This document shows, in pieces, positions 25,625-46,859 of a stretch of 64,000 nt of DNA. The stretch spans positions 62,001 to 126,000 of the forward strand of contig JAPJBO010000413.1 of NCBI GenBank assembly GCA_030068145.1, given 5' to 3'. This stretch comes from Diplonema papillatum (lineage: Eukaryota; Euglenozoa; Diplonemea; Diplonemida; Diplonemidae). The notes beneath the pieces were generated by a model. That model saw only the letters and a list, made by a program, of their open reading frames with translations. It did not search any database and was not told the DNA's origin. Numbering within the stretch: the stretch's first letter is position 1; each line of letters opens with the position of its first letter. The position numbers and the translations under genes were made by a program.

Positions 25625-27448
25625 TCAGCTGTCGTCGTCATAAACATGGGGAGTGACGAGAGGAAGTCGCGTGGTCGCAACGTCGGGTGAACTCTTGAGC
25701 CATTCGACAAGTCGCCGAGCCGCAGGCTGCTGCTCTGAATCGATCTTTGTCGCCAATAGACTGTCCTTCTCCTCTTGCTGTCCCTTCAGGTACGCAACGG
25801 TGAGCGTGTTCATGAAATTGACCTGCATCATTCCGGGAGACTGCACTGTGTACATCCACTCCGCGCCTTCTTCCCCTTGATTCACACGTTTGACGTTCCA
25901 CAGTATCAAGGGAAGAGACGTCAGCCCCTTGCAGTAGGTGAGCTTTTCAGGCACGGCAACCACCTCATACGCAGTTATCACATCTTTCGCCACGGTGGTG
26001 TCAATCAGCAGTCTGATCTCCCAGTCCCTGGCTACAGAAACGATGGTGTGAGCCAGCGAGTAGACTTGGCCGACTATGTTGTACCTTCTGAGAGTCTCCG
26101 TCCCCACGTTTCCACAGAGGGCCTCACCACTTGAAACACCACAATGTGTCGTGATGTGTGACTTCTGCAAACCAACGCCTATCTCGTAAGCTGCCAATAC
26201 CGACATGTGCCGATGACTGGTGCAATGACGTGACGCATTCCACGAGCACGCAACGTGATCTCCCATGAATAGGTCGACAATACCCTTTGAATTGCTCACG
26301 GATTTGATTGTCAGAGAGAGAAGTGTCCTCTGAAGGCACGCGATGTCTCTTCTCGAGTCGTTGTCGGCGACTCTTTTTTCGTCGTCGTCCCACGTACTCG
26401 ACAGTCCGTCGTGAAGCCCTCGCACGTTGAGCGCTGCAATCGAAACAGTTCGACGTATATACTCGTCATGGCAGGAATGGCGGTGACGAAGGTCGACGGA
26501 TGGCCTGGAAGATGAGAGATCGATGTAGAACCATTGATGTTCGCTTGCGGGACTTTTCGGGCTGTCGTTGCTGTCGTCTTCTGCGTACAGAAAGCAAGAC
26601 TGTGGGAGGAACGGTTCGTACCGCTTCAGGTTGGAAAGCAGATTCGACAGAACCGCGACGAATTCTTCGGAAATTTCCGTTTGGTCGCCGTCGCCGCGCT
26701 CTGAACACTTCTGCAGCAGCGTCTCGGCCTCGGCAAGCTGGAACTGAACCAACAGCTCGGAAACATTCGTTGCGGCTTCAATGCTCTTCTGCATCCTGTC
26801 TTTCTCAGCGTGCAGCTTCTGAGCGAAGCTTTGAGTGATGAAAAAATCGACGACGAACACAAACGATGCCAGCATAAACGAGGTCGCGCCTGCATCCGCT
26901 GATGTCTTGCACGGCGGCCGGCTGCATTCGCATCTCGCCGTGCGAACGCTGTACGGATTAGTCAGTGCAACATCGTACAACCCAAACCTGAACACCGCCT
27001 CGGTCTCAGCAACGAGCAGCCAGACGACCCCTGCGGCTACAAGGCAAGTGCTAAACTTCGAAGGCAACTTGCATACCAACGCAATATCTGTAAGCAACAC
27101 GAGAAAGGGCCAAGGTCGATCCATCATCGCGGAGGTGTAATCAAGGTCCGCGAGGAACAAGGTAAGCGTAGCGCCGATCATCCACGAGCACATATTCAGA
27201 TCACTCGCGTGTTTCTGGTAGAAGACAAGTATTAAGTGGCAACCAGTCCACACGCCAAGCAAAATACACCCGTAGAAGATCAAATCCTGGTCCCCGTCAG
27301 ACAGCCGCTGGATGGCAATTAAGGCTACCACAACAAGTAGAGCCAGCAGGTAACTCGGGTAAATTAGCTTTCGAAGTCTTTGGACGTCGGTATCATCAGG
27401 CATCGAAATGCAACGGCGAAGCGGCTCGAACAGCCGCGCGACGCCCAT
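25625..27448 (-). CDS. six-TM protein with degenerate class III cyclase domain, copy 1 (607 aa)
   Basis: The start is the ATG at 27448 (MGVARLFEPLRR), matching the paralogue at 35220; an upstream in-frame ATG at 27589 adds sequence not shared with the others. N-terminal ~205 residues: six hydrophobic segments; then a helical linker (FAQKLHAEKDRMQKSIEAA); a Ser/Asp-rich spacer; and a C-terminal cyclase-homology domain (VSIAALNVRGLH, FMGDHVACSW, HCGVSSGEALCGNVGTETLR, VGQVYSLAHTI). Class III cyclases make cAMP/cGMP, but key residues are replaced as in the other copies (see 33334-35220), so catalysis is not expected. No introns. The 5' flank differs from that of copies at 35220 and 46859. The C-terminus ends shortly after VTPHVYDDDS. 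Confidence 0.8.
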   Translation of the reverse strand: MGVARLFEPLRRCISMPDDTDVQRLRKLIYPSYLLALLVVVALIAIQRLSDGDQDLIFYGCILLGVWTGCHLILVFYQKHASDLNMCSWMIGATLTLFLADLDYTSAMMDRPWPFLVLLTDIALVCKLPSKFSTCLVAAGVVWLLVAETEAVFRFGLYDVALTNPYSVRTARCECSRPPCKTSADAGATSFMLASFVFVVDFFITQSFAQKLHAEKDRMQKSIEAATNVSELLVQFQLAEAETLLQKCSERGDGDQTEISEEFVAVLSNLLSNLKRYEPFLPQSCFLYAEDDSNDSPKSPASEHQWFYIDLSSSRPSVDLRHRHSCHDEYIRRTVSIAALNVRGLHDGLSSTWDDDEKRVADNDSRRDIACLQRTLLSLTIKSVSNSKGIVDLFMGDHVACSWNASRHCTSHRHMSVLAAYEIGVGLQKSHITTHCGVSSGEALCGNVGTETLRRYNIVGQVYSLAHTIVSVARDWEIRLLIDTTVAKDVITAYEVVAVPEKLTYCKGLTSLPLILWNVKRVNQGEEGAEWMYTVQSPGMMQVNFMNTLTVAYLKGQQEEKDSLLATKIDSEQQPAARRLVEWLKSSPDVATTRLPLVTPHVYDDDS

Positions 27449-28502
27449 TTCCTTTGATATTATGTGCTTCCGGCAGGGTTTCCTCCCCCCCGAGAATCTG
27501 GATTTTGCGGGGGGAAACGTGAAATTGTGCTGCAGCAAAAAGACCCCCCCTGCCCTGTGCTTACTTCGAGCGCGTGTTGCCTGCAGCACATTTACCTCCT
27601 TTGATATAGGACTCGCTGCGCTGGTGGGGAGTCATGGGTATGCTGATGAGCACCACACGATGATTACCTCCTTTGATACTGATGAGTTCTTTTGAGTACG
27701 TGAACCACATGCACTCAGCATCAATCAGCAAGGTGAGGCGAAAATTCATTTTATCAGAGACAACCCCACAGTAGAGGAAGTGGAGAACAAACTTCGGAAA
27801 TGATGCTGCATCGGAAAGATACGAAGGCAGGGGGCTGGTCTGCTTGTTCTAGGCTCCTCGGTCCCGGTGGTTATTGCGGCTATCGGTGGGTTGCTGTCAG
27901 GTATTCGCGCCGTTGCGTCAAAGGAGGTTGGTTCTCTGGTTGACCGTGTATTCCGATGCAGAGCTCAAGGAGGCTTTGGCAAACAGTGGTTCCCGTTTGC
28001 CAAGTGTGTGCGGGTGCAGATCAGCGCTGCAGGGTGGCAAGAAGCGGTCCGGCAGTGGAACTGCACTTTCAGTCTCACCATACTTATGTTGTGGTGCTGA
28101 TTTTGACTTGGCGGGTCCCTGGTCTGGGCTAGCTCGGCGGGGAAAACCTCCTTCGGCAGGGATTCTTAGAGCATTCAACGGCATCCTGATTTTTTGTACT
28201 TCATCGTTTTCAGACGAGCCGACGCCCCAGCTCACAGTCACGGCTCGCGGACCGCAGGGGAGCCCAAGTATTGCGGTACCACACGAGTGCTGGAGCAAGA
28301 GCAGAACATATGTGATGTTTCGGCCCACTTGGTCAGCGTACAGCTGTGACGGGAGAACACGTTCATCATCAGTACAGTCTCCTGGGTGGGCGCTCAAGAG
28401 GTTCGAACGCGCAATGCGGCAGAAGACTCCGCATCTATTGATACCCGTGACGAATCATTGTGGACGCTCGCCAAAAAAGCCACAAAACTAAAACAAAAAT
28501 GA
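27449..28502. other. no gene recognised
   Basis: Contains G/C runs (27480-27560) and a CAGCACATTTACCTCCTTTGAT piece (27585-27607) shared with repeat family D. The 27625-27660 stretch resembles 23965-23995 (GTGGGGAGTCAT, GAGYACCACAC). Confidence 0.4.
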
Positions 28503-28665
28503 AATGAAGCTGCCCCTAAAAAAGGGGCACAAGGAAAATCGAAGAAGCGCCAGCCATTGAACACAAGCTGCCTGCAATCGGAAGAGAGCAGATGCTTGGC
28601 CGTGTATGCGACGAGAGGAGGCGAATGGTCAATGTGTACGCGTGTCCTTTGCACGGGGATGAAGA
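28503..28665 (+). repeat. dispersed repeat family C, copy 1
   Basis: Shares GAAGCTGCC, CACAAGCTG, GCAATCGGAAGAG, GCAGA and CTTGGC in the same order as 31163-31330 and 36393-36580. Confidence 0.6.
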
Positions 28666-29435
28666 GCTGAGTTGCTTTGTTTCATTCGGGTACCTTTTCA
28701 TTGTTACTCTGCTTGTGCCTTGAGATATCGAGATCTGTTGAGCACAACAATAATATGGAGTACATGCACTCTGCCGGCGTCTTTTTAACAATCGATACAA
28801 ACACGGGTACTTACACGCGTATCATGACCGGCAACAAAAGCCCTGGTTTTCCACGGAAAAGCGACCCTCAATCGATGCGCAGGTCCTGCCGGAGGAAGGG
28901 CGCGCAAAAGCCTTCTTCGCGAAAGTAGGCATCGCGTAGAATGACTACAGAGCTAAAAGCGGTGGTTGCCAAACAGGTCGAATCGGTAGGTACGTCATCT
29001 TTGGGCAAAGCGAAAAAACTGCTACTCGGACGTCGAACGGGAACTATTGAACACTCCGCAAATGCAGAGATACGATCCTGCCTTATGCGCACCACTTGTG
29101 CAGAAAGGTGCCAGATTGTGTGACGCCAAGCGTCTGTAGGAGTGGAGGAACGCAGACGACGCACTTGAGTGAAGCGAAGGATATCTGACATAATATGCTG
29201 AGCCAAACAAAGTTAGAGAAAAATTGGACGGCTTCTCCACGACTTCTCTTTCTTCGTGTGTAGACGTTCTAGACGATCGTAAATCATGTCTATACGTGGG
29301 CTCGCTTTATACACGTCCTGACGAACACGGATGATGCAGAAAACCTTGGTACACACTGGATACCCGGGACTGCGCTATCGCCTTGCTACACTTTTCACAC
29401 ATGGTTCATTAGCACATTATCGCGGCAGGGTTTTT
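28666..29435. other. no clear gene; one weak 60-codon ORF
   Basis: 28941-29123 on the plus strand (MTTELKAVVAKQVESVGTSS...) has plausible composition but no recognised family. Confidence 0.25.
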
Positions 29436-30986
29436 CTATTCTGCGTTCTTCTTCCGTCGTGGGTTCGAATAAAATGGGGAAGATTGACTGGCTCGTATGC
29501 TCTGTGTCGCAGCGCTCCAATTCTGCGGACGGCTATCATCGTAAAAATGGGGAGTAATGAGAGGCAGCCGCGTGGTCGCAATCTCGGGTGAAGTCCTGAG
29601 CCATTCAATAAATCGCCGAGCCGCAGGCTGCTGCTGTGGATCCATCTGTGTCGCCAATAGATATTCCTTTTCTTGCCGTCCTTTCAAGTCTTCAACGGCG
29701 AATAGATTATCCTTCTCCTCTTGCTGTCCCTTTAGATAAGCAAGGGTGAGCGTGTTCATGAGATTGACCTGCATCATTCCGGGAAACTGCACTGAGTACA
29801 TCCACTCTTCACCTTCTTCTCCTTGGTTTGCACATTCGACCTTCCACAGTATCAAGGGAAGAGACGTCAGTCCCTTGCAGTAGGTGAGCTTTTCAGGCAC
29901 GGCAACCACCTCATACGCAGTCATCACATCTTTCGCCACGGTGGTGTAAATCAGCAACCTGATCTCCCAGTCCCTGGCTACAGAAGCGATGGTGTGAGCC
30001 AGCGAGTAGACTGGGCCGACTATGTTGTACCTCCTGAGAGTCTCCGTCCCCACGTTTCCACAGAGGGCCTGACCACTTGAAACACCACAATGTGTCATGA
30101 CGTGTGTCTTCCGCAAACCAACGCCTATCTCGTAAGCTGCCAATACCGACATGTTCCGATGACTGACGCATGGACGTGACGCATTCCACGAACACGCAAC
30201 AAGATCTCCCATGAAGAAGTCGACAATACCCTTTGAATTGCTCACGGACTGGACTGTCAAGGAGAGGAGCGCCCTTTGAAGTCGCGCGACATCTCGTCTC
30301 GAGTCGTTGTCGGCGGCTTTCGTGTCGTTGTTCCACGTACGTGATTCGAGCAATCCGTGAAGCCCTCGCACGTTGAGCGCTACAATCGAGACAGTTCGAA
30401 GGATGTACTCGTTACTGACGGAATGGCGGTGACGAAGGTCCACACCTGAAGTGAGGCTGGATATCGAGGGGCTGCATTGATGTTCGCTTGTAAGACTCTT
30501 CGGGCTGTCGCTGCTGTCGTCTTCTGCGTACATGAAGCAAGACTGTGGGAGGAACGGTTCGTACCGCTTCAGATTGGACAGCAGATTCGACAAAACCGCG
30601 ACGAATTCTTCAGGTATTTCCGATTGGTTCCCGCACGCATCGTCGCCGCGCTCTGAACACTTCTGCAGCAGCGTCTCAGCCTCAGCAAGCTGGAACTGAA
30701 CCAGCAGCTCGGAAACATCCCTTGCGGCTTCGATGCTCGTCTGCATCTTCTCCTTCTGAGCATGCAGCTTCTGAGCGAAGCTTCGAGTGATCAAAAAGTC
30801 GATGACGAACACTAACATCGCCAGCAGAAATGAGGTCGCGCTTTCGTCCACCGATTTCTTGCACGGCGGCCGGCTGCAGTCGCATCTCGCCCTGCGAGCG
30901 CTGTACGGATCAGTGAGTGCAACATCGTACAACCCAAACCTGAACACCGCCTCGGTCTCAGCAACAAACAACCAAACAACCCCAAC
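29436..30986 (-). pseudogene. 5'-truncated copy 2 of the six-TM pseudocyclase gene
   Basis: Similarity to the full-length copies starts at VGVVWLFVAETEAVF (in TM5) and runs to the C-terminus, so TM1-TM4 are missing. The open frame continues upstream to 31232 through unrelated DNA containing short ATTGTGAAGTAAG/ATTGTGAATTAAG tandem repeats (30990-31055), which mark the junction. The C-terminal region has a 15-residue duplication (LKGQQEEKDNLF / LKGRQEKEYLL) and a tail unlike the other copies. The cyclase domain carries the same substitutions as its paralogues. Missing membrane segments make a working protein unlikely. Confidence 0.75.
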
Positions 30987-31162
30987 GATTGTGAAGTAAG
31001 ATTGTGAATTAAGATTGTGAATTAAGATTGTGAAGTAAGATTGTGAATTAAGATTGCAGGCCGGCGAGAACCTCACGAGACCGTTCCGCTTTACTCCACT
31101 TGAGAACACCTGTGAGAAAACGAAGAGGGGGCTCACGAAAACAAGGGGTGCCTTTTCAACGA

Positions 31163-31330
31163 AAAAGAAGCTGCCTCTATAATAAGAGGAAAGGGCGAGA
31201 AGAATGTAAGACGTGGCGGCACTTGTGCGCAAGCTGATTGCGATCGGAAGAGGGCAGAAGCTTGGCGGGTAAACAGCGTGTGAGAGAGAAGAGATGTGAA
31301 AACGGGGGTTTTGCCCAGGGAGGTTTTCAT
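31163..31330 (+). repeat. dispersed repeat family C, copy 2
   Basis: Same order of blocks as 36393-36580 (GCGATCGGAAGAGGGCAGAA, AAACAGCGTGT), here upstream of the truncated cyclase copy. Confidence 0.65.
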
Positions 31331-31744
31331 GTTATTCTCGTGCGTCTTGACCATGGATAAGTGCGCACCAACCTTCCAAACGGTAACGGTACAGGCGTAC
31401 GCGTACCAAGAAATGCATGCAAGTTGGAGAATTCAGGTTCCACAGCTGTAGAAGCACAAGATTCCATTGCCTGCACAAGCACGGTCAGCGGCCGAGAGGA
31501 CTGTCAGTTTGGTTGAGGCAGCCGAGCAGACTACACGGTACGGACGTCCGGGCTGTGACCAACGGCAGCATCGATGACGAACAAGACAAGACACCTGGCT
31601 ATACAATGCGTTGCTCAGGGTAGTCACTAATGCAACAAATGTACGACACCTGGCGGCCGTGGACCTGAAGAGTGTGGGCATGTCGACTACGACAACGGCG
31701 GTAATGGAAAGATATGCTTTGAAATCGTGAAATCCCAGCCCCCG

Positions 31745-31862
31745 AAACTAAACCCAGATTTACCTGCGTTTCGTGTGGGCTACAGCACCCTGATCTCCAT
31801 GAGATTTCGCAACTGGCAGCCTCCTCAAGTATTTCCTACAAAGCAGGTGCGTATATACAAAA
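31745..31862 (+). repeat. dispersed repeat family D, partial copy
   Basis: Matches the right ~115 bp of 61455-61665 and 54187-54400 (TTTCGTGTGGGCTACAGCAC, CAACTGGCAG, TTTCCTACAAAGCAGGTGC). Confidence 0.7.
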
Positions 31863-32378
31863 AAAAAAGCAAAAGATATCAGGACAGAGACCACTAAGGC
31901 TATCATAAGTCCGCACACGACGTGTGTAAACCCTGTTTTGAGCGATTTAGCAGAGCACGCTGCCATCCGACACTTTTTGATACATACAAGCAAGCTTGTT
32001 ACCATAAGAAAGCGGCAATTGATAGCAGGACCGAGACCACTACTCGTGAGTCCATCAGAAGTCAAGGTGGGGTCGATCAGAAGTCAGTGACGGAACAATA
32101 TACCCTTGATAGTGTCGCCAGTCCCGGAAAACGGCAGAGCCCGAACCTACAGACAAGAAAATTCGCAGGTTTCGTTCTCTGCCGGGGGTTTGCACGAAAT
32201 CAGCTGTCCAGTTGCTTGTTGCGTTGGTTGAGGTTGAGGGGACTGGAAGGCTTTCGAGGATTGCAGATGGTGTGAAAGTTGACCATCTCATCGAACCGGC
32301 GCAAAGTGCCAGTTACAATCGGACAAGAAAATGATATGTATGCGTTTGGTGTGCGCGTAAGCGCTTTCATCCCGTGAT

Positions 32379-32588
32379 GAAGAGATTACTTGCAACACCA
32401 TTACCACCGTTCATAGAGCACAGGTCTTGATCCGAGGGATTTATCCCAGCCTTCTGAATACCAGCAGTACGCTGATGCCCAGCAAACTGAGCCACCTTGC
32501 AGCACCCGAGCTCTGGATCCAACTACGAGCTTTTTAACAGCATCAGCATTAGTATACGATACGATACTGGTGCTGGTTACAATTACCG
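32379..32588 (-). pseudogene. 18S rRNA-derived fragment plus extension, copy 2
   Basis: On the minus strand it opens with CGGTAATT and continues through degenerate forms of the universal 18S stretch (CCAGCACCAGTATCGTAT...) to an intact AAAAAGCTCGTAGTTGGATC, then ~150 nt closely matching 59880-60024 that I cannot match to conserved 18S. In blocks B and C the homologous position has TTGAACAGG before AAGGGAGGG; here the rRNA piece abuts that AAGGGAGGG, marking an insertion or replacement. Confidence 0.7.
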
Positions 32589-33333
32589 AAGGGAGGGAAA
32601 AACGAATTGACTGGCACTGGGAGTGTAATACTCACACGGAAGCCCCGACTCGGAAGCCGGAGCTAAAGCTGAAGTGACAAAGCGGGTGTCACACCCGCTA
32701 AAAGGTTTCGGGGGTGTGCCTTACACACATTTTAGTAGTAACACCCACTTTTCGGTTTGTCCCGGCACACCCTCTTCAACTCCAGCTTCTGAGACTGAAC
32801 TCCACCGTACAAACGCATGTATGAGAAAAGTTTATAACAGTCGCTTGGTTATCCGGTGTCGTCCAAATGCATGGGGTAACTACGGAGAGCTGGCCCGCCA
32901 ACAACCACTGCGCATTTATTTGTTGTCGCAGTTGGTATATCCCGGAGTTCAACCGGAGCGGACTGAGGAGTCCGACAGGGTACGGTGCCGGGCCAGGCAC
33001 ACGGACCGTCGAGCCAGCTTTCGCGACCAACACGGTGGACGCAGGAAAGCCTTGTCGAACACTGGATGCTTGTGACGACAAACCGGTCAGAAGACGTGTT
33101 GTCACATGCTCTGTCAGAGCTTTGCGTGACGGCGCTCGTCAACCACCTGCTACGCTTTTCGATAGACAATGGCGCATGGTTCTTCCAAACACATGCGCGG
33201 GGCTCGGTGCAAAAGATCACCGAAGATATACCCGGCGTCTTCATAACAAACCAAAAAAAAAGCTGAGTTGCATCATTGGGTCCTTCGCACGGGAACAGTC
33301 AGTTCAGTTACGCGTGCCCAACGCAGAGTTACA

Positions 33334-35220
33334 CTATTCTTCATCCTTCTTCGCAATGAAGAAGTGGGCGGGAGGTGGCCTGGCGTCATAAAAGTTGGGG
33401 GTAACGAGTGGCAGTCGCGTGGTCGCAATGTCGGGTGAACTCTGCAGCCATTCGACAAACCGCCGAGCCTCAGGCTGCTGCTGTGGAGCCGGTGTCGCCA
33501 ATAGATTCTCCTGCTCCTCTTGCTGTCCCTTCAGGTAAGCAAGGGTGAGCGTGTTCATGAAATTGATCTGCATCATTCCGGGAGACTGCACTGTGTACAT
33601 CCACTCTTCGCCTTCCCCTTGGTTCGCACGTTTGATTTTCCACAGTATCAAGGGAAGAGACGTCAGTCCCTCGCAGTAGGTAAGCTTTTCAGGCACGGCA
33701 ACAACCTCATACGCAGTCATCACATCTTTCGCCACGGTGGTGTCAATCAGCAGTCTGATCTCCCAGTCTCTGGCTACAGAAGCGATGGTGTGAGCCAGCG
33801 AGTAGACTTGGCCGACTATGTTGTACCTCTTCAGCGTCTCCGTCCCCACGTTTCCACAGAGGGCCTCACCACTTGAAACCCCACAATGTGTCACGACGTT
33901 TGTCTTCTCCAAACCAACGCCTATCTCGTAAGCTGCCAATACCGACATGTTCCGATGGCTGACGCATGGACGTGACGCATTCCACGAACACGCAACACGA
34001 TCTCCCATGAAGAAGTCGACAATACCCTTTGAATTGCCCACGGATTTGATTGTCAAGGAGAGGAGTGACCTCTGAAGGCACGCGATGTCTCGTCTCGAGC
34101 CGTCGTCGGAAAGATTAATCGTGTCGCTGCCCAACCCCCGGAAGTCTAACAGCCCGTGGAGCCCCCGCACGTTGAGCGCTACAATCGAAACAGTTCGACG
34201 TATGTACTCGTCATTGAGGGAATGGCGGTGACAAAGATCAACGAGCAAATTTTTGCTTGAACCCGAGGGAATGAGGCTGGGTTTTGGCGGGAATTGATGT
34301 TCGCTTGTGGTACTTTTCGGGCTGTCGTTGATGCTGTCGTCTTCTGCATGCATGAAGCAAGACTGTGGGAGGAACGGTTCGTACCGCTTCAGGTTGGAAA
34401 GCAGATTCGACAGAACCGCGACGAATTCCTTAGAAATTGCGGATTGGCCACCGTTCGCGTCGTCACCGCGCGCTGAACACTTCCGCAGCAGCGTCTCGGC
34501 CTCGGCAAGCTGGAACTGAACTAACAAGTCGGAAACATCCGTTGCGGCTTCAAGGCTCGCTTGCATCTTGTCCTTCTCAGCGTGCAGCTTCTGAGCGAAG
34601 CTTCGAGTGATGAAAAAATCAATGACGAACACTAACGATTTCAGCACAAATGCGCTCGCGCCGTCATACACTGGTTTCTTGCACGGCGGCCGACTGCAGT
34701 CGAACTGTTCCCTGCGAACGCTGTACGGATCAGTCAGTGCAACGTCAAACAACCCAAACCTGAACACTGACTCGGTCTCAATGGTAAGCAACCAAACGAC
34801 CCCCATGGCCACCAAGCATATGCAGAACTTCGGAGGCAATTTGCACACCAACGCAACATCCGTAAGCAACACGAGAGAGGGCCAAGGCCGATCCATCATC
34901 GCGGCGGAGCGATCCAGGTCTCCGAGAAACAAGCAAAGCACACCGCCGACAATCCACGTGCACATATTCAGGTCACTCACATGCTTCAGGTAGAAGACAG
35001 ACATTACGAGGCAGCCACTCCACAAACTGAACAGAAAACACGCGTAAAACATGAGATCCTGGTCCTGGGCAGCCAGCCGCTGGAGGGCAGCAAAGGCCGC
35101 CACAAACGCTACAAAGAGCAGGTAAGTCAGGTAGAGGAACTTGCGAAGTCCTTGCACGTCGGTTTCACCAGGCACCGTAACGTAACGGCGAAGTGCCTCG
35201 AACAGCCGCGCGACGCCCAT
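33334..35220 (-). CDS. six-TM protein with degenerate class III cyclase domain, copy 3 (628 aa)
   Basis: Starts at ATG 35220 (MGVARLFEALRR). TM segments at about 28-49, 55-79, 85-101, 113-128, 131-150 and 186-206; helical linker ~207-280; Ser/Pro-rich spacer ~290-335; cyclase-homology domain ~340-515. Against the class III consensus, the first metal Asp of xFxDIxGF is Asn350 (VALNVRGL), the second metal motif Gly406-Asp407 is kept (FMGDRVACSW), the substrate-Lys position in VDK is Phe403, and GDxVNxAxR reads GQVYSLAHT (Gln471, Ser474, Thr478). The fold is evident (HCGVSSGEALCGNVG...RYNIVG), but metal and transition-state residues are lost, predicting no nucleotidyl cyclase activity. It may sense, scaffold or pair with an active partner. 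No introns. Confidence 0.85.
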   Translation of the reverse strand: MGVARLFEALRRYVTVPGETDVQGLRKFLYLTYLLFVAFVAAFAALQRLAAQDQDLMFYACFLFSLWSGCLVMSVFYLKHVSDLNMCTWIVGGVLCLFLGDLDRSAAMMDRPWPSLVLLTDVALVCKLPPKFCICLVAMGVVWLLTIETESVFRFGLFDVALTDPYSVRREQFDCSRPPCKKPVYDGASAFVLKSLVFVIDFFITRSFAQKLHAEKDKMQASLEAATDVSDLLVQFQLAEAETLLRKCSARGDDANGGQSAISKEFVAVLSNLLSNLKRYEPFLPQSCFMHAEDDSINDSPKSTTSEHQFPPKPSLIPSGSSKNLLVDLCHRHSLNDEYIRRTVSIVALNVRGLHGLLDFRGLGSDTINLSDDGSRRDIACLQRSLLSLTIKSVGNSKGIVDFFMGDRVACSWNASRPCVSHRNMSVLAAYEIGVGLEKTNVVTHCGVSSGEALCGNVGTETLKRYNIVGQVYSLAHTIASVARDWEIRLLIDTTVAKDVMTAYEVVAVPEKLTYCEGLTSLPLILWKIKRANQGEGEEWMYTVQSPGMMQINFMNTLTLAYLKGQQEEQENLLATPAPQQQPEARRFVEWLQSSPDIATTRLPLVTPNFYDARPPPAHFFIAKKDEE

Positions 35221-36975: not shown

Positions 36976-36989
36976 TAGGCTGACTCGAA

Positions 36990-37275
36990 CTGCCCAAGGT
37001 GGCCTAAAACCGCGAGATATTGAGAAACTCTGCAAAAAACGCAAGTTTCGGGCACATTAGACCTGAAAACCAACAAACCCCGAAAAATCATTTTCGACCG
37101 GAAAAGTGTCCTCGGCCGGGGTCTTCAAGCCCTGAAGGCGTGCGCCGTTCACTCTGCCATCACGGTGTCAGTTCCAGGGGGGAAAACTTCCTAAGGAGAC
37201 CCTTTACGAAACGACACTATAAAAAAGTGCCCCCGGGCTTCGCCCGCGGACCCCCTAAAAAGTGGGGTTGGCTCG
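36990..37275 (-). mobile_element. SINE-like repeat, copy 2 (degenerate tRNA-like centre)
   Basis: Same tail (GAGAAACTCTGCAAAAAACG on the plus strand) and same end (GGGGTTGGCTCGA) as the copy at 23625-23925. The tRNA-like segment is eroded, and a GGGCTTCGCCCGCGGACCCC hairpin is inserted near its outer end. Confidence 0.55.
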
Positions 37276-37288
37276 ATACGAAACGGTT

Positions 37289-37361
37289 TTAATACGAAAC
37301 GTGTTTATTTAAGAAACACCCCGGATCTGAAGCCATGAAACATTAACACGTTTCGTATTAA
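37289..37361. mobile_element. 73-bp hairpin element, copy 1
   Basis: Perfect 17-bp inverted ends, TTAATACGAAACGTGTT and its complement, around ~39 bp. Related to 41224-41299. Confidence 0.75.
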
Positions 37362-38048
37362 AAACTGCACTTCCATAGGGGTTTTAAGGGGTTTTGTACT
37401 TAGAGTGAACTGGGGCTCGACAGTGAAGAAAAGGACGCAGGAAAATTGACGGAACCGTCAAAAAATGAATATGCTGGTGTGGTCGGTGGGCCAGTTCCCC
37501 GTAGTTCCCCCGTAGTTCAACACGAGGGGGGGGTGTCTTTTTTTTTTTTTTTTCATTTCTTGTTTTTTTGCTGAGTGCTTCAGGGATGCAGCCTTGGGTC
37601 CTGGAGAGCATTTCTAAGCTACCTTGCACTTTTGCGTCACAAAATAAGGACAATTTCGGGTAATTCGAGCGTCTCAAGATCAGAAACCCCAGGAGACAAG
37701 CCACCTGGTCCAGGCCAAAATCGGTGAATTTCGGGGGGGGGGGAACTCCTTTGTGGCGACCACTTCCCCTGCAGTCGGCCCTGGTGAAGGTGGAACGGAA
37801 GAGCTACAAAGGTGCAGCACTGCGGCTCCAGCTTGCGCAGAGCGGCCCTGTGCTATGCGTGCCCCGAAGAGGAACGAATAGGATGAAGGACAGACTGGGA
37901 GTCACGGTTTGACAGGTAGTGACAGGATTAGCTGCGGCAAAAAGGAGAGCATATCAGAGGCCCCGCGCCGGCCGGGTTTCGAAGCGATCGCGGGACCGGG
38001 GACCTTCGCGGCGGTCGGAGGAGAGAGGTAGTTCCGGGCGCTGCAGTA
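37362..38048. other. no gene recognised
   Basis: Contains T- and G-runs (37530-37560, 37733-37743) and a tandem CCCCGTAGTTC motif (37497-37518) also present at 39938-39960. Confidence 0.4.
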
Positions 38049-38720
38049 TTGACTGGATGGGAAGTGCTGGTCGGTGGTGACGTCTCGACGGCGGAGCTCG
38101 CCGTCGACTTTGAAGTGTGCACCGGACTGGATCTTCCGGGCAGTGTCGTAGCGACGACGGACGGGACACCGTTGAGCATGCGTGCGAGGGTACTCGCAAA
38201 ACTTTTAAAAACCGTCGGGGATGCGCTGGAGCGAAACGGCGACGGACCGCTTCTGCCAGGCAGGAAACTGGAGAGGATAGGGTTGCCGAGAACGGCGGGA
38301 GCCCCGCCGTGCCTCACGGGGTACGAGATGAGGCCGATCTTCCGTGGTGGAGCCGGCGCGGACTTGCGAAGTCGAAGGCCCAAACTGTGCTGTCGGAAGG
38401 GGCACCACCGGGCGGCCTTGGCGAGCGGAGAAGACAGCAAAGAAGAAGAAGGCGGAGAGCCCCGTTCTGCACCGAAGGTGGAAGAGGGAAAACGCTCCCA
38501 GAAGCAGCGGGAGAAGATGGGACCGAAGAGCGGGAAACCTCATCGCCACCGAGAGCGAAGGTCGAGAAGACGGCGCCAACGCGAGCGAAGAAGCGGCAAT
38601 CGGACTCCGCGGCGGAGCCGGTATCAAAAGGCGCAAAGGACGCATCGAAGCGCAAGCGAAGAAGCTGAGCGGGCAGACGACCCCACAGAAGGCAACACGG
38701 TCATCGCCCTAGCGCCTTGA
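38049..38720 (+). other. possible decayed gag-like ORF
   Basis: A 223-codon frame from ATG 38049. The first ~105 residues have protein-like composition (LAKLLKTVGDALERNG, LPGRKLERIGLP), then a basic Arg/Lys-rich tail. A neighbouring frame (38117-38668) gives a more sensible basic tail (PRAKVEKTAPTRAKKRQ), hinting at a frameshift in the middle. No family recognised. Confidence 0.25.
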
Positions 38721-38838
38721 AGAAGCAGAAATCGACGCGCAACCGATGAACCTGGACGAGCAATCGAAGAAGAAGCGAGGCACCAAACGCGCGCCTGAGC
38801 GCGACGATCAAGACGAGCTAAAGAGGCGAAACCATGAC
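38650..38838 (-). repeat. right arm of the ~180-bp inverted repeat pair
   Basis: Reverse complement of 36130-36310; the arms enclose about 2.3 kb including a SINE-like copy and the 73-bp hairpin. Confidence 0.8.
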
Positions 38839-38880
38839 ACATCACCTACGAAGAGATAATCGCGACACCGGCGATGCAAA

Positions 38881-38920
38881 CTATCGCCACAGATTATTTG
38901 CATTCTAACCCAAACTATCA
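38881..38920 (-). repeat. 36-bp dispersed motif, copy 5
   Basis: On the minus strand: TTTGGGTTAGAATGCAAATA then ATCTGTGGCGATAG. Confidence 0.65.
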
Positions 38921-39047
38921 GAGGCGGTCGCGGTCGAAGACGGCAACCCGAGCGAGGAGTAAGGTTGATAACCAGAATGACAGTCAGAATGGCCATGCTG
39001 AAGACAAGGTTGCGTTGCAGGAGGAGAAACTGGTGCTTGGCCGAGGA

Positions 39048-39368
39048 TAAGATGGCTATGGCGAGCTTCCGGTTTCTCCCAGAGTAGAGGAGCTGAAGCA
39101 AACGCCACCTGGGCCTCTGAACGTGATTGCGGATCACCTTCTTGCCCAAACCCAAGAGGGATTGGAGTGTCGGAATGGCGCGCCAGGAGAGGCTCTTGGC
39201 TTGTTTGCTTCTTTCGCTGGCGGGAGGGAGATTTCGGACGCGGGAAAGCCTTGGGTTCTTCGGGCTCTGCATCCTTCTGTTCCAGAGATCGTAGAGCAGG
39301 TTGCCCGCAACAACATTAGCCTTGAATCGCATGCTTCGGGTGAGGGCATGCAGTTTATCAAGAAGTAA
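39048..39368 (+). other. possible exon or decayed ORF
   Basis: Frame open from just after 39047 to a stop at 39368, about 105 codons with protein-like composition (PLNVIADHLLAQTQEGLEC, VPEIVEQVARNNISLESHAS). Not recognised. Confidence 0.25.
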
Positions 39369-40084
39369 CTCAGCTTCCCTTGCAGACACAAGTTGGACTC
39401 AGCTTGCTGAGCAAGCACATCCTTTCGTCTATGACTGTCCTCATCAAATCACCATGGGACTCTTGATTGCGTGCTGCCGACCAATTTTACCTGTGGGCTG
39501 TCCAAGATATCCTAGATCTCGATCGACCTCTGCCATCCGTCACGAAAACGCGATCATGTTCAAGGAACTGTACAAGCACGCAATGGTCGCAACTGAGCTT
39601 TTCCTTCAGTCTCCTGGCGAACGTTGAAGGGCCGGTAGCGAGCTTTACTTAGGTTCCTGCAACCGACTTTTGCGAGTCCTACGATAGCGGTCGAGTCTAC
39701 TTTTTCAACAAATCCTTCCACGCGTGCGCATTCCACGGCGGCACGAAAGCACCACCCCCGGCGCCCCGTTTCCACCGACAGGCTCTATTTTTCGAAAGGC
39801 TTCGCCTGTTGTGGAAGGCCCAAGCAAGAGGAACCGTTTTGGTCACTCCAAAGCTCCGGGTTTTGCGCCGGTGCGTGGCGTTTGAAAAAATTCCCCTACG
39901 GAAAAAAAAAAAGGACACCCCAAGGTCAGTTCCCCGTAGTTCCCCCGTAGTTCCCCTAGGCTATACCGACCACACCATATGCACCGATTTCTTTGCCCGC
40001 ATCAGCTCTTGGGAGCTGGCTCTTCTGGCTCTTTGGGAGCTGGGAAGAGCCAGCGGGAGCTGGGCTTCTGGTGAAAATTTTGCT
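39369..40084. other. no gene recognised
   Basis: Short frames; a TCTTGGGAGCTGGC/GGGAGCTGG repeat cluster lies at 40003-40070. Confidence 0.35.
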
Positions 40085-40570
40085 CGCGCGTGCAGCAGAC
40101 CTTTTTTAATAATTTTTAGCTCGCGATTAGCTCCGATGAAGAGAACCGTGAAGAATGGACCCGGGGACCAAGAAGTATGTGCGTGGTTCGCGGGTCTTTA
40201 TAAGATGCAGGCACGGAGCAGACCTTTTTCGACGACTTTCTGCTCGCGATCAGCTCCCATGAAGAGAACCGCGAAAATTAGACCCGGGGATCAGAAAGTA
40301 CGTGCGTGGTTCGCGGGTCTTTACGCTATGCTGGGCACCGGGCGTGGAAACCACCCAGGTGTGTGTTGAGAAGGGCGGAACCGATCCCCTGAATGGATAC
40401 ATTTTCCCGTTGGTCCACGTAGCATCCCTTTTTCGATGAATTTACGTTCGCGATCAGCTCCGATGAAGAGATCCGTGAAAATTAGACCCGGGGATTAGAA
40501 AATATATGCGTGGCCGGCGTGGAAACCACCGGGTGTGCATCGAGAAGGCCGGGAATCGATCCCCAGAGTT
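40085..40570 (+). repeat. three tandem ~110-180-bp repeats
   Basis: Each unit contains CGCGATYAGCTCCGATGAAG, AGANCCGTGAAAATTAGACC, CGGGGA and GTGCGTGG near 40120, 40240 and 40450. The last two also share CGTGGAAACCACC. Confidence 0.8.
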
Positions 40571-41223
40571 TCCACCGGTTGCGGGGACAACGTTCTCGCC
40601 GAAACAACTTCGCAACTTCAACGAATGTCTCGTACTGAGTGAATGCGCAGATTGCATCAACGTTCTGACTTTGCTGATTTTGACCAAGAGCTTGAAGAAC
40701 TGGCAAACGATGAGTGCGTTGCTGTGTAGAAGAAGCTGCATGCAATCACCTGGAGAGGCTTTACTCCTTCGTGAACACTAACGTGTCAGGAACTCGTGGT
40801 TGGCACTGGATGCTTGTAACAACTGACCGGTCGCTCCGAAGCTGTGTTGTATCTTGCTCGCTTTCTGACTTTTGCGGAAGCAAGATAGTCAGCCACCTTG
40901 CAACGGTCTTTTCCGCCGACACCGACTCTTGGTTCATACAGACGGACGCTCGAGGATGTCAACAAGACGATTGGAGCTGCGGTTACCCATTCCTTGTTTG
41001 CGGCGCTGCAGTTCAGTTCACAGACTGCATCCCAGAGCCCGCCCACGCCTGTCGTCTTTATTCACAGGTGCCAGAACGCTCTTGTCGCTAATACTCTGGC
41101 CGCGATACGTTTTTCCTGCTCAAAGGCTCGATAAAACCGAAGATTTTTGGGAACAAAAATGGGGGATCATCATGGGGTTTCAACAGTTTTCAAATTTCAC
41201 TACGTACGTCAGACCCCATGTTT

Positions 41224-41299
41224 TTAGTACGAAACGTGTTAACTAAGAAACACTTTGGCCAAAAAAGTAGCTAAGAAACATTTACACGTTTCGTATTAA
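41224..41299. mobile_element. 76-bp hairpin element, copy 2
   Basis: Inverted ends TTAGTACGAAACGTGTT / TACACGTTTCGTATTAA around ~42 bp containing CTAAGAAACA twice. Same family as 37289-37361. Confidence 0.7.
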
Positions 41300-41429
41300 A
41301 CCCGCATACGGTATGTGCATGCGTGCCAGTTGCCACGGCGGAAATATCTGTGTAGGTTTGTCTTCGCAGATCCCTCAGGGTCTTAACAACGTTCAACAGC
41401 CGTGGCATTGTTCGCGAGAAATTCTTGCA

Positions 41430-43541
41430 CTTGAGAATTCAGGTTCCACGACTGTTAAGCACGAGGTACCTTGGACTGCCTCACCAAGCACGGACCGCGG
41501 CTGAGACTGTCGGTTGAGGCAGCCGAGCAGACTACACGGTATCCACGCCCGGACTGTGACCAACGGCAAGATCGACGACGAACGAGACAACCCCCATGGG
41601 AGTGATAGAGTGGAAGAAACCCGGAGAAACGAGGCAACGAAGTTGCTCCAAACGGAAAAGGAGCTGCTCATGCCTACAATGGGTGAGCAAGACCGACTGG
41701 CTGCAGTTTACTCTACTGCCTTGGACTATCATCAATTTGCATCACACTACCGAAGAATTGTGAAAACGGGTGGAATAGTTACTGAGAAAGGGTACGTCAA
41801 CCCGGAAGCTTGCAGAAAAGGGGGGTAATTGATAGCGCCTACGAGTGAGTCTATCAGAAGTCAGTGTCGGAAAAGTATGTTCAACCCCTGGTAGTGTCGC
41901 CAGTCCCGGAAAGCGACAGAGCCCGAACCCCACAGACAAGAATATTCGTGGGTTTCGTTCTTTGCCGGGGCTTTGCACGAAATTGGCGCTACACAAAAGC
42001 AGGTGAGTTCTGCTTGCCAACAGTTCAAAGACCCCGGAAGTCAGCGGTGTGTATTATTGTTTTCTCTTACCGGTATGCAAGGTGGCGTCTGTTGAGCAAA
42101 AGGAAAACCTTTTAAGGGCTTATGTAAAAAAGAAGATGCATGAGCAGGTTCACGTCTGATACGAATACCGATACATTCGACAGGCTCGTTGTACGTGGTA
42201 AAGCTTCTGGGGCGGTGGAAAACTAGTCGAAGGTTCAAAAATCGTAGATGTGGGAATGAAGCCGCGGGCGGATAGCACTATAACCTCCGACTTCATCCCT
42301 TGAACAGGAAGGGAGGGAGAAACGGATTGACTGGCACTACGCACACGGAAGCCCAGCCTCCGAAGCTGGAGCCAAAGCTGAAGCTACAAAGCGGGTGTCA
42401 CACCCACCTTTCGGGTGTGCATTGCACACCGGCTTTTCGGCACGCCCTCTTCAACTCCAACTTCTGAGGCTGGACCGCCGTGCAAAACGCATGTTTGAGA
42501 AACTTCGTAACCCCCGTTTGGTTATCCGATGCCGTTCAAGTACGACATGGGATGTACCAACCGCAACAACGAAGAAATACGTAGTGGTGTGGTCGGGTGT
42601 GCCAGTTCCCGCAGTTACCCCGCAGTTCAACCGGGGTGTCTGCGGAGGCCCGCCCGGTGGCAGGCACACTAACCATCGAGTCAGACAACGTGACCAACAC
42701 GAAGGGTGCAGGAAGCTTTGTTGAACAAGTCGGTCAAAAGACGTGTTTCGTCAGAGGTTCGCGTGACGGCAATCATCAACCACCTGCCCCGCCCTAGCTT
42801 TTCGCAATAGACAATGGCGCATGGTTCTTCCAAACATGGTTCTTCCAAACACATGCGCGGGGCTGTCAGCGGAATCCGATACCGCACAAAAGCTCGCCGA
42901 CGGTATATCCGACATCTTCATATTCATAACAATCCAGAGTTGAGTTCCATCATTGGCTCCTTCGCACGGGAACTGTCGGTTTTGTTGTGCGAGCAGTTCC
43001 ACTATTCTTCATCCTTCTTCTTCTATCGGTTCGATGAAGAAGTGGGTGGGAGGTGGCCCGTCGTCACAAAAGCTAGGTGTAACGAGTGGCAGTCGCGTGG
43101 TCGCAATGTCGGGTGAACTCTGCGGCCATTCGACAAGTCGCCGAGCCGCAGGCTGCTGCTCTGAAGCCATCTGTGTCGCCAATAGACTCTCCTTCTCCTC
43201 TTGCCGTCCCTTCAGGTAAGCAACGGTATGTGTATTCATGAAATTGACCTGCATCATTCCGGGAGACTGCACTGTGTACATCCACTCCGCGCCTTCTTCC
43301 CCTTGGTTCGCACATTCGACCTTCCACAGTATCAAGGGAAGAGACGTCAGTCCCTTGCAGTAGGTGAGCTTTTCAGGCACGGCAACCACCTCATACGCAG
43401 TCATCACATCTTTCGCCACGATGGTGTCAATCAGCAGTCTGATCTCCCAGTGTGTGAACCAGCGAGTAGACTGAGCCGACTATGCTGTACCTCCTGAGAG
43501 TCTCCGTCCCCATGTTTCCACAGAGGGCCTCGCCACTTGAA
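41430..43541. repeat. segmental duplication block B
   Basis: Collinear with 31420-33830 of block A. Ends at 43541 inside the pseudocyclase gene. Confidence 0.75.
43009..43541 (-). pseudogene. C-terminal fragment, copy 4 of the pseudocyclase family
   Basis: Covers the end of the cyclase domain and the C-terminal tail (VAKDVMTAYEVVAVPEKLTY ... HFFIEPIEEEG). Upstream, near 43450, 20 bp present in the other copies are missing, which shifts the frame. Similarity stops at about 43541 within the domain, so all TM segments and most of the domain are absent. Confidence 0.8.
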
Positions 43542-43873
43542 ATAAAAAGTTCGCTTGAAATTCCGGGTTTTTTGCACGAAACTAGCTGGCAGCAGCAAAT
43601 ACCACTAAGAGTTGGTAGTGGAAACAGGCTACATGAATAATGCGGTGTGTTCCGTTTGCCAACTTTCCAAAGACCCCGTTGAGCGGTGTGTATTTTGTGC
43701 GGCCGACGTCAAACGTCGTTCTGATGGCGACTTTTATTATCGGGGTCAACTACACACGTTGGCGCAGTGAGCTGGTCTGGACCGATCATCTGCGATGGGT
43801 TGAATCGGGTTCCGCGCTCCGATACTGAGTAGTCCAGGGACGACAGAGTTTTGTTACGTGCGCTCCGATACTG

Positions 43874-43925
43874 TGTTGTTTTTCGCTCTCAGGACTTTGA
43901 CCTGTTGTGTTTGTGATTTGTCGGG
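43874..43925 (+). repeat. dispersed repeat family E, short copy
   Basis: GTGTTGTTTTTCGCTCTCAGGACTTTGACC then TGTTGTGTTTGTGATTTGTC (written in two parts, the second part matching 61987-62006). Confidence 0.6.
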
Positions 43926-44945
43926 AACAAAATTTCAAGGGTTGGGATATAAGGGAATTACACCATGCAAATACCCTGTGCCGAATCACGGAACATCGAG
44001 AAACCCCCGGACCGGGGGAATCGACTAAAAGAAAAAGCGTACGGGCTTCGCCCGCGGACCCTCCTAAAAAAGTGAGTTGGCTCGACAGAGCTATTTGCAC
44101 ACCTCTAGTCTCGGATAAAATCGTAGACGTGGAAACGAAGCCGCGGACGAGTAGCACTATTACCTCAGGCTTCATTTCTTGAACAGGAAGGGAGAGAGAA
44201 ACGGATTGACGGCACTGAGGAGGTGTAATATTCACACGGAAGTCCAGCCTCCAAGAAGCTGGTGGCTGGTGCTGAAGCTGAAGCTGAAGTGACGAAGCGG
44301 GTGTTACGGGTGTGCATTACACACATTTTAGTTGCAGCACACCCGCTTTTCCGGTATGTCCCGGCACGCCCTCTTTAACTCCAGCTTCTGCAAAACGCAA
44401 GTTTGAAACAACAAGAAAGTTCATAAAAGTCGCTTGGATATCCGATTTCGTCCAAATACGGCATGCGCAGATCTTGAATATTCAATGGAGAACATTGAAG
44501 GCCGAAGTGGAGAAGGTTTCCGTGTCAACAGCAATTGGACATGGGTCAGTCGGTCCTAAGACAAGGTGTAGTTGCTCGCCTCAACGCTGCTACTGACGAG
44601 CTTGATCGGACGTGATAAACTAACCGCAATAACGAAGAAACGCGTAGTGGTTCGTCGGTGGGTACGATGTCGGGTCAGGCACACTACCCATCGAGTCAGC
44701 TTTCGTCAGAAGACTGTCAGTTGCTCCGTCAGAGTTTGCGTGACGGCGATCATCAACCACCCGCTACGCTTTTCGCAATAAACGATTGCGCATGGTTCTT
44801 CGAAACACATGCACGGGGCTGTCAGCGGAATACCGTGACACCGCACTAAAGCTCGGCGATGGTCTTCATAACTATCCGAACTTGGGTTCTTAGCACGGGA
44901 ACTGTCGGTTCTGTTGCGACCACAAACACATAGCTCCACTATTCG

Positions 44946-46859
44946 TCATACTTCTTCCTTCGTCGGTTCAGTGAAGAGGTAGGTGGGAGGTGGACGGTCG
45001 GTTTCGTCATAAGAACTGGGGGTGACGAGAGGCAGTCGCGTGGTCGCAACGTCGGGTGAACTCTGCAGCCATTCGACAAGTCGCCGAGCCTCAGGCTGCT
45101 GCTCTGAAGCCATCTGTGTCGCCAATAGACTCTCTTTCTCCTCTTGCTGTCCCTTCAGGTAAGCAAGGGTGAGCGTGTTCATGAAATCGACCTGCATCAT
45201 TTCGTGAGACTGCACTGTGTACATCCACTCCGCGCCTTCTTCCCCTTGGTTCGCATGTTCGACCTTCCACAGTATCAAGGGAAGAGACGTCAGCCCCTTG
45301 CAGTAGGTGAGCTTTTCAGGCACGGCAACCACCTCATACGCAGTCATCACATCTTTCGCCACGGTGGTGTCAATCAGCAGTCTGATCTCCCAGTCCCTGG
45401 CTACAGAAGCGATGGTGTGAGCCAGCGAGTAGACTGGGCCGACTATGTTGTACCTCCTGAGAGTCTCCGTCCCCACGTTTCCACAGAGGGCCTCACCACT
45501 TGAAACCCCACAATGTGTCGTGATGTGTGACTTCTGCAAACCAACGCCTATCTCGTAAGCTGCCAATACCGACATGTTCCGATGACAGACGCATGGACGT
45601 GACGCATTCCACGAACACGCAACACGATCTCCCATGAAGAAGTCGACAATACCCTTTGAACTGCTCACGGTTTTGATTGTCAGGGAGAGGAGTGCCCTCT
45701 GAAGGCACGCGATGTCTCGTCTCGAGTCGTTGTTGGAAAGCTTGTTCGTGTCGCTACCCAACGCACGGGAGTCCAACAGCCCGTGAAGCCCTCGCACGTT
45801 GAGCGCTACAATCGAAACAGTTCGACGGACATACTCGTCACTGACGGAATGGCGGCAAAGATCAACAGAAGTTGGGTTGGAAGCGGAAGAGGGATCGAGG
45901 CTGATTCGCTGCGAGCATCGATGTTCGCTTGCGGGACTCTTTGGGCTGTCTTCTGCGTACATGAAGCAAGACTGTGGGAGGAACGGTTCGTACCGCTTCA
46001 GGTTGGAAAGTAAATTCGACAAAACCGCGACGAATTCTTCAGATATTGCGGGTTGGCCACCGCCCGCGTCGCCGCGCTCTGAACACTTCCGCAGCAGCGT
46101 CTCGGCCTCGGCAAGCTGGAACTGAACCAGCAAATCGGAGACATCCGTTGCGGCTTCAATGCTCGCTAGCATCTTGTCTTTCTCAGCGTGCAGCTTCTGA
46201 GCGAAGCTTCGAGTGATGAAAAAGTCAATGACGAATACTAACGATGCCAGCACGAATGAGCTCGCGCCTTCGTCCATTGGTTTCTCGCACGGCGGCCGGC
46301 TGCAGTCGCAGTGTGCCCTGCGAACGCTGTACGGATCAGTCAGTGCAACGTCATACAACCCAAACCTGAACACCGCCTCGGTCTCAGTAACGAGCAACCA
46401 AGCGACCCCCGTGGCCACCATGCAAGTGCTGAACTTCGAAGGCAATTTGCACACCAACGCAACGTCCGTAAACAACACGAGAAAGGGCCAAGGCCGGTCC
46501 ATCATCGCGGCGGCGCGATCCAGGTCGGAGAGGAACAAGCAAAGCACACCGCCGACAATCCACGTGCACATATTCAGGTCACTGACATGCTTCAGGTAGA
46601 GGACAGACATTACGAGGCAGCCAGTCCACAAGCTGAGTAGAAAACACGAGTAAAACATGAGGTCCCGGTCCTGGGCAGCCAGCCGCTGGAGGGCAGTGAA
46701 GGCCGCCACAAACCCTACAGCGAGCAGGTAAGTCAGGTAGATCAACTTGCGAAGTCCTTGCATGTCGGTTTCACCAGGCACCGTAGCGTAACGGCGAAGT
46801 GACTCGCCAGGCACCGAAACGCAATGGCGAAGTGCCGCGAATAGCCGCGCGACGCTCAT
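44946..46859 (-). CDS. six-TM protein with degenerate class III cyclase domain, copy 5 (637 aa)
   Basis: The start is the ATG at 46859 (MSVARLFAALRH), by homology to the copy at 35220; an in-frame ATG at 46895 lies in unrelated flank. A short internal duplication near the N-terminus (SVPGESLRRYATVPGET) adds 15 codons. Six TM segments, a helical linker and cyclase-homology domain follow as in copy 3, with the same losses: Asn for the first metal Asp (VALNVRGL), kept FMGDRVACSW, and VGPVYSLAHT in place of GDxVNxAxR (here Pro rather than Gln at the purine-Asp position). The frame is intact for 637 codons, which suggests constraint on the protein despite loss of catalytic residues. A SINE-like insertion lies 20-320 bp upstream of the ATG and may alter its promoter or 5'UTR. 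Confidence 0.83.
   Translation of the reverse strand: MSVARLFAALRHCVSVPGESLRRYATVPGETDMQGLRKLIYLTYLLAVGFVAAFTALQRLAAQDRDLMFYSCFLLSLWTGCLVMSVLYLKHVSDLNMCTWIVGGVLCLFLSDLDRAAAMMDRPWPFLVLFTDVALVCKLPSKFSTCMVATGVAWLLVTETEAVFRFGLYDVALTDPYSVRRAHCDCSRPPCEKPMDEGASSFVLASLVFVIDFFITRSFAQKLHAEKDKMLASIEAATDVSDLLVQFQLAEAETLLRKCSERGDAGGGQPAISEEFVAVLSNLLSNLKRYEPFLPQSCFMYAEDSPKSPASEHRCSQRISLDPSSASNPTSVDLCRHSVSDEYVRRTVSIVALNVRGLHGLLDSRALGSDTNKLSNNDSRRDIACLQRALLSLTIKTVSSSKGIVDFFMGDRVACSWNASRPCVCHRNMSVLAAYEIGVGLQKSHITTHCGVSSGEALCGNVGTETLRRYNIVGPVYSLAHTIASVARDWEIRLLIDTTVAKDVMTAYEVVAVPEKLTYCKGLTSLPLILWKVEHANQGEEGAEWMYTVQSHEMMQVDFMNTLTLAYLKGQQEEKESLLATQMASEQQPEARRLVEWLQSSPDVATTRLPLVTPSSYDETDRPPPTYLFTEPTKEEV

Follow-up and report, generated by a model that had tools for sequence, protein, structure and literature searches.

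Why would a marine protist keep an array of genes for membrane proteins whose cyclase-like domain has lost most of its catalytic residues? The question is raised by a 64,000-nucleotide stretch of the Diplonema papillatum genome (contig JAPJBO010000413.1, here C413, positions 62001-126000; referred to as the window), in which an earlier note, made from the sequence alone, had described five minus-strand copies of a gene for a six-transmembrane (six-TM) protein ending in a degenerate class III cyclase domain. Diplonemids are described as abundant ocean protists of little known biology, and according to the paper on the D. papillatum genome their signal-transduction families, among which it names protein kinases, are highly expanded (PMC10161547). 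The word "cyclase" occurs nowhere in the main text, supplements aside, of that paper or of PMC12697944, which reports endogenous tagging of other D. papillatum proteins, and a search of open-licence papers returned none pairing "Diplonema papillatum" with "adenylate cyclase". Here we describe the fold, residue losses, relatives and selective history of these proteins, and we lean, with moderate confidence, towards regarding them as non-catalytic, receptor-like members of class III that pair with catalytic cyclases and modulate them, most simply as inhibitory partners.

Cyclase fold and active site of the array proteins

Copy C, one of three intact genes of the array (Table 1), served as the reference protein and as the query against the 271-Mb genome, and residue numbering follows it. 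The likeness to class III cyclases that the earlier note had seen by eye stays below the cut-off when single copies are compared with the Pfam Guanylate_cyc profile (12.2-13.2 bits against a cut-off of 21.9; E 0.067-0.14). It becomes clear when a profile of 20 paralogous domains is compared with solved structures, where CyaB (3r5g, E 8e-10) and Cya2 (2w01, E 1.5e-9) are matched and 19 distinct solved sequences are found at E <= 0.001. A structure search with the AlphaFold2 model of copy C agrees with the profile, aligning 317 residues with Rv1625c/Cya (7yzk, root-mean-square deviation (rmsd) 8.5) and 371 with human adenylyl cyclase 9 (AC9, rmsd 9.1); both alignments begin within the membrane region. 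The model gives a strong match to the class III cyclase fold.

The helices predicted in this model span residues 21-50, 56-78, 83-106, 114-125, 130-153 and 184-234. The membrane part comprises five clear helices and a short fourth one (residues 114-125, 12 residues), which a hydropathy scan merges with the fifth. A cysteine pair (C175/C180, in CSRPPC), present in 27 of 27 aligned proteins, precedes the last membrane helix, which continues as a long helix; a second helix then ends in the NLKRYEPFLPQS motif. Both helices are shared with the catalytic paralogues described below.

Alignment upheld the substitutions proposed for copy C, namely N350 for the first metal-binding Asp, F403 for the base-selecting Lys and GQVYSLAHT for the motif GDxVNxAxR, with the GD of the second metal motif kept. 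The six classical positions read N350, F403, D407, Q471, S474 and T478, so that five of six are replaced. The losses are shared by the family: four of the residues D, D, K, N and R are missing from every protein of a 27-row alignment (26 fetched open reading frames (ORFs) plus the protein P0002, with copy B and other partial pieces excluded). The first metal Asp is Asn in 26 rows and Ser in one, the base-selecting Lys occurs in none (F, L, S, G, T, M or a gap stands instead), and the transition-state Asn and Arg are both absent from 27/27 rows and present in 11/11 catalytic paralogues. The second metal Asp, D407, is kept throughout (27/27), and the second base-selecting position is variable, as it also is in the 11 catalytic domains. 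A profile alignment to solved cyclases likewise places non-catalytic residues where the catalytic ones are expected. We infer from this residue pattern that the window-type domain is catalytically inactive, a conclusion that is well supported at the level of sequence.

The five-copy array is part of a larger family. At least 78 matches to copy C were found in the genome, all genome match counts being lower bounds, and at least 37 of them span the query from residue 140 or earlier to residue 540 or later; 35 of these 37 lack an internal stop. Four lie inside the window, truncated copy B included, and two of equal score (C580:1846 and C236:3899) could represent a single locus present on two contigs. 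The 146 genomic Guanylate_cyc matches (E <= 0.001; 150 of 166 candidates scored) include none of the 37 spanning places. Further queries brought up more members, and some other copies are partial or carry stops. P0002 and P0003, the latter labelled DIPPA_21054 of Diplonema papillatum, match loci of the genome at 100% identity. The family alignment covers part of the 37 places (two of the seven on C89); L028, two L061 frames, one L047 piece and copy D of the window were dropped before the first alignment.

The degenerate site is itself conserved. Invariant residues were found across the 27 aligned proteins, and among 25 aligned domains, which follow four or five different types of N-terminus, the metal-1 Asn is present in 24, the metal-2 Asp in all, G399, N414, G456 and G459 in 25/25, and an EWMY signature at 96%. 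Because the Asn and Asp are fixed across N-termini, the dead site appears to be held in a definite form that leaves room for a ligand. The domain could accordingly be a nucleotide or metal sensor, in which N350/D407 and the pocket motifs would bind the ligand and a homodimer would signal to unrelated effectors without catalytic cyclases; this explanation gains from the pattern, since a freely decaying site is not expected to keep a single set of substitutions. However, Lys, Asn and Arg have been lost and their positions vary, which argues for a weak hold on a nucleotide, and the conserved residues may be structural only. We regard such a sensor as rather unlikely, though worth weighing.

Tandem cyclases and other proteins carrying the domain

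Catalytic paralogues were found in the rest of the genome, where eleven ORFs combine a membrane and helix region like that of the window proteins with two cyclase-like domains. They were taken from the 30 best Guanylate_cyc loci (L009-L038) on the strength of an additional match to copy C, with L028 excluded because its match is confined to the cyclase part. Their first domain retains D, K, D, N and R in 11/11 cases. The second has the Lys and the Asn in 0/11, the Arg in 2/11, the metal-1 Asp in 1/11 and the metal-2 Asp in 2/11; in L036 it is predicted to have a cyclase-like order of strands and helices (AlphaFold2, mean pLDDT 70.6, read for element order only). Up to residue 295, 24 positions (start Met included) are the same in at least 80% of 26 pseudocyclases and 11 catalytic proteins, and in a tree of the N-terminal region a branch of 93/90 sets the 26 single-domain proteins apart. 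On G000:C21, open frames resembling the tandem cyclase L036 form a large cluster, with many places between 17369 and 329938.

The window-type profile aligned by hhalign with the second domains at 98.7% (E 3.9e-16) and with the first domains at 2.0% (E 0.024). In a tree of 73 rows, a branch of 98/99 separates window-type and second domains from a set of 41 further cyclase domains, made up of the 11 first domains, 17 more Guanylate_cyc matches from the D. papillatum genome and 13 bacterial relatives, with the window type plus P0007 at 95/92 and the second domains at 100/97. The joint degenerate group was recovered with 98 in a quick tree with two extra long rows (G_L018 and G_L034, absent from the 73-row tree); one of 14 bacterial proteins, P0021, is excluded from the trees. 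The window domain appears to belong to an old pseudocyclase lineage, which includes the second domain of the paralogues as well. An origin by recent decay of a paralogue's catalytic first domain was rejected, given the grouping of that domain elsewhere in the profile comparison and the trees and the losses common to 27/27 proteins.

The same domain ends proteins with other N-termini. L067 is a 1214-aa open frame without a Pfam match, and L068, a 1347-aa open frame, carries Pfam peroxidase, cytochrome b5 and cytochrome b561 regions, together with a PA14 match slightly below the cut-off, which makes it a possible redox-sensing receptor. In L069 and L070 the preceding part looks HAMP-like by eye, with no Pfam match at E 0.01, and L071 and L072 correspond to L068 from around residue 506 onward, the peroxidase being absent from both. 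The window-type profile matches all five of L071-L075 (E 3.3e-47 for L072 to 1.8e-14 for L074), the domains of L074 and L075 being less regular by eye. P0007, whose entry name is of transcript-assembly type and whose label Hpha we take to mean Hemistasia, has Pfam solute-binding regions ahead of the domain. L067-L070 and P0007 all have the metal-1 Asn and the metal-2 Asp (5/5). Some of these N-terminal parts recur before Guanylate_cyc matches: in a 2191-aa open frame (G000:C357:40699-42915), possibly the catalytic counterpart of L068, the L068-like b561/b5 part (query residues 497-1016) directly precedes such a match, as does an L069-like membrane and HAMP-like part (query residues 350-540) in an 842-aa frame on C115. 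The earlier picture of the family stands in part: fold and shared losses are upheld, the dN/dS and paralogue checks that it proposed came out in its favour, and none of the three outcomes named as refuting it appeared. It lacked both the separate degenerate lineage and the variety of N-termini.

The window array and selection on its copies

Within the window, the count of five copies is correct: the three frames described as intact are open throughout, and comparison of proteins and DNA bore out the truncated copy and the fragment. The similarity is beyond chance, with an identity to copy C of 73% for copy A over 618 aligned residues and of 80% for copy E over 643. DNA similarity between copies tracks the coding regions; its 5' limit lies near the ATG, and its 3' limit lies near the stop codon in A and B and about 240-290 bases further between C, D and E. 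Copy B, whose match to copy C starts at residue 139, lacks membrane helices one to four and the beginning of helix five; at the DNA level it resembles A, C and E as far as 30983, and the upstream part of its frame is dissimilar to the other copies. The similarity of copy D ends at 43542.

Table 1. Coordinates of the array copies in the window and of a peroxidase-containing relative elsewhere in the genome
Feature	Coordinates	Strand	Description or evidence	Further coordinates
Copy A, intact, 607 aa	25625..27448	minus	membrane helices, then long helix, then pseudocyclase domain	open frame 25625-27589, ATG at 27448; domain slice 25796-26470
Copy B, 5'-truncated	29436..30986	minus	protein and DNA comparison	open frame 29436-31232
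Copy C, intact, 628 aa	33334..35220	minus	open frame; AlphaFold2 model	
Copy C membrane region, residues 21-209	34594..35160	minus	model helices, hydropathy, Cys pair	
Copy C long helix and second helix, residues 184-285	34366..34671	minus	alignment, model, hydropathy	
Copy C pseudocyclase domain, residues 337-535	33616..34212	minus	alignment, fold match	
Copy D, frameshifted 3' fragment, query residues 435-628	43012..43582	minus	split across two frames (43015-43582)	
Copy E, intact, 637 aa from ATG at 46859	44946..46859	minus	open frame	open frame 44946-46895, 649 aa from 46895; domain slice 45165-45839
L068	G000:C1600:15900-20200	minus	Pfam and domain profile	open frame 61-4101

The dN/dS ratio (omega) was estimated by a Nei-Gojobori-type method, with intervals from 1000 codon bootstraps, and again with transitions weighted twofold. 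Over the whole gene it is below 1 for every pair of intact copies: 0.57 for A-C, 0.52 for A-E and 0.59 for C-E (upper 95% bounds 0.74, 0.70 and 0.80), or 0.68, 0.61 and 0.69 under the second weighting (0.87, 0.81 and 0.93). Values of 1 or more arose in 0, 0 and 1 of 1000 bootstraps, and in 1, 1 and 6 with twofold transitions. Truncated copy B gives 0.40-0.52, which probably dates from the time before its truncation, and fragment D, with 0.44-0.67 and intervals from 0.23 to 1.44 (kappa 1), is too short to be informative. By segment, comparison with L042 gives 0.20-0.23 for the cyclase part, the lowest segment for A and C, the linker being lower for B and E. In the comparisons between A, C and E the values are 0.46-0.68 for the cyclase part and 0.67-1.11 for the C-terminal tail (A-E 0.96, C-E 1.11), which points to weak constraint on the tail.

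Judged by these ratios, the pseudocyclase family is kept by selection despite its residue losses. The array might instead be a functionless leftover of gene amplification, made of decaying duplicates, as the two truncated or frameshifted copies, the partial or stop-containing copies elsewhere, the only moderately low omega and the near-neutral tail would suggest. The bootstrap counts, the 35 of 37 stop-free spanning matches, the residues invariant across 27 proteins and the occurrence of the domain in P0007, presumably from Hemistasia, speak against such decay, which we consider improbable.

The remainder of the window holds a 320-bp direct repeat with identical copies (48159-48478 and 49667-49986), and long minisatellites of 41-bp and 32-bp units (17243-20518 and 22463-23478), both open in several frames and giving rise to spurious long ORFs. 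By eye, a 491-aa minus-strand ORF (54829-56304) is like a retroelement reverse transcriptase, and minus-strand ORF pieces at 8782-9720 and 10824-11729 are like a WD-repeat protein. Matches to small-subunit rRNA (59461-59963, plus) and large-subunit rRNA (62410-62773, minus) lie on opposite strands.

Proposed pairing with catalytic cyclases and relation to known systems

Under the reading that we favour, as modulators of catalytic cyclases, the six-helix module would receive a membrane or extracellular cue, which the last membrane helix and the NLxxYxPYLP helix would relay to a cyclase-fold domain unable to make cAMP or cGMP. Signal-dependent pairing with catalytic cyclases, or among the pseudocyclases themselves, would use the membrane and helix module common to both kinds of protein and would alter the number of active catalytic dimers, in the simplest case by inhibition. 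We infer the pairing, the sign of regulation and the ligand. Class III domains act as dimers, and since cyclases with intact residues share the module, pairing with them is the most likely form. A mixed pair should be dead or crippled, because the pseudo-domain brings in no complete metal site and none of the residues Lys, Asn and Arg; provided that pairing occurs through the shared module, the pseudo-domain would therefore be a natural inhibitory or conditional partner.

Several points weigh against this reading. Of the five copies in the window two are defective, and an omega of 0.5-0.7 among recent copies, with the tail values for A-E and C-E near 1, is moderate constraint only. The window-type profile gives 38-62 bits for P0008-P0021, 14 cyclases that are presumably bacterial, and 21-52 bits for the second domains; because these scores do not separate the two, the lineage claim rests on the trees and on the shared membrane module. 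An hhalign comparison with a four-row bacterial profile (98.2%, E 5.5e-14) came close to the result for the second domains but is not relied on in either direction, as its row P0017 was wrongly cut. Both degenerate groups sit on long stems in the trees, so their joint grouping may reflect long-branch attraction. The tandem relatives already join a degenerate to a catalytic domain, so that a free pseudocyclase need not bind another cyclase, and a role with non-cyclase partners would also fit.

One such role would be that of a scaffold only, the cyclase-fold domain serving as a docking surface, as the catalytic domain of a trypanosome adenylate cyclase does for CARP3, where deletion of that domain is reported to abolish the interaction (PMC9481589); direct evidence from D. 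papillatum is none, no search for a CARP3-like partner having been made, and we hold a pure scaffold to be very unlikely. Catalysis through a non-canonical site, in which N350 and D407 might bind the metals and which might act alone or be completed by a partner, would draw on the retained D407 and glycine motifs and on the tolerance of some class III enzymes for substituted base-selecting residues, but with four of D, D, K, N and R lost in 27/27 proteins and all five kept in 11/11 paralogues it is the least probable of the explanations considered.

Modulation of catalytic partners may extend beyond the six-helix proteins. The pseudo-domain is fused to several sensors (the six-helix module, heme peroxidase/b561/b5, HAMP-like and solute-binding regions), at least two of which (the six-helix module and b561/b5) also precede a Pfam-recognized cyclase domain. 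These fusions suggest a layer of receptors whose signalling would not depend on their own production of the messenger. Tentatively, the degenerate cyclase of diplonemids could be a general non-catalytic output module, with sensor-matched pairs of live and dead receptors setting the cyclic-nucleotide output and a conserved N-D site that may bind a ligand.

Among known systems, the mycobacterial six-TM cyclase Rv1625c/Cya (7yzk) resembles the window proteins in having membrane helices, a connecting helix and a cyclase fold at the C-terminus, but it is an active enzyme (PMC4174876, PMC9433096), whereas five of the six classical positions are replaced in the Diplonema copies. The canonical class III site is built from residues of two domains, and in the mammalian membrane adenylyl cyclases, which resemble the Diplonema proteins in their six-TM units, as far as the short fourth helix of the model allows, and in a cyclase pair of two unlike domains, C1 gives the metal-binding and C2 the nucleotide-substrate residues (PMC6027212). 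Unlike C2, the Diplonema pseudo-domain lacks the nucleotide-substrate residues, and the tandem relatives have both domains behind one membrane module. These D. papillatum tandem cyclases (L036 and relatives, named "Adenylate cyclase" at NCBI) are a further comparison, with the same module and a second domain that groups with the window domain; they differ by their additional, intact first domain.

The receptor adenylate cyclases of trypanosomes (ESAG4/GRESAG4) are also euglenozoan and form a large family built as sensor, TM segment and cyclase, but they have a single TM, carry extracellular flytrap domains and are catalytic (PMC6027212); dimers of them, and heterodimers with a dominant-negative effect, are reported or cited (PMC9481589, PMC6027212). 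The photosensor adenylate cyclases of Euglena share euglenozoan origin, a double cyclase domain and a large family (PMC6366073), although BLUF light sensors stand in front of them; the likeness is drawn from published description. The invertebrate soluble guanylyl cyclase subunit MsGC-beta3, cited in PMC9481589, is a cyclase-fold partner that yields an inactive pair; it differs in being soluble and, according to a title cited there, in forming active homodimers.

Neither pseudoenzymes nor six-TM cyclases nor dominant-negative cyclase pairs are new in kind, and pseudokinases are well studied. A large pseudocyclase lineage with diverse sensors was not found in our search of open-licence papers and, as far as that search goes, is new here. 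If the proposed pairing is true, the mixing of live and dead subunits would be the cyclase counterpart of receptor kinase/pseudokinase pairs. Should the lineage be real, a tally of cyclase folds in a genome would give too many enzymes, and receptors without activity could have regulatory roles. The membrane domains of mammalian cyclases have been argued to act as receptors (PMC11606603), and the family may bear on what cyclase membrane domains sense, because here the module has apparently been kept without a catalytic domain behind it.

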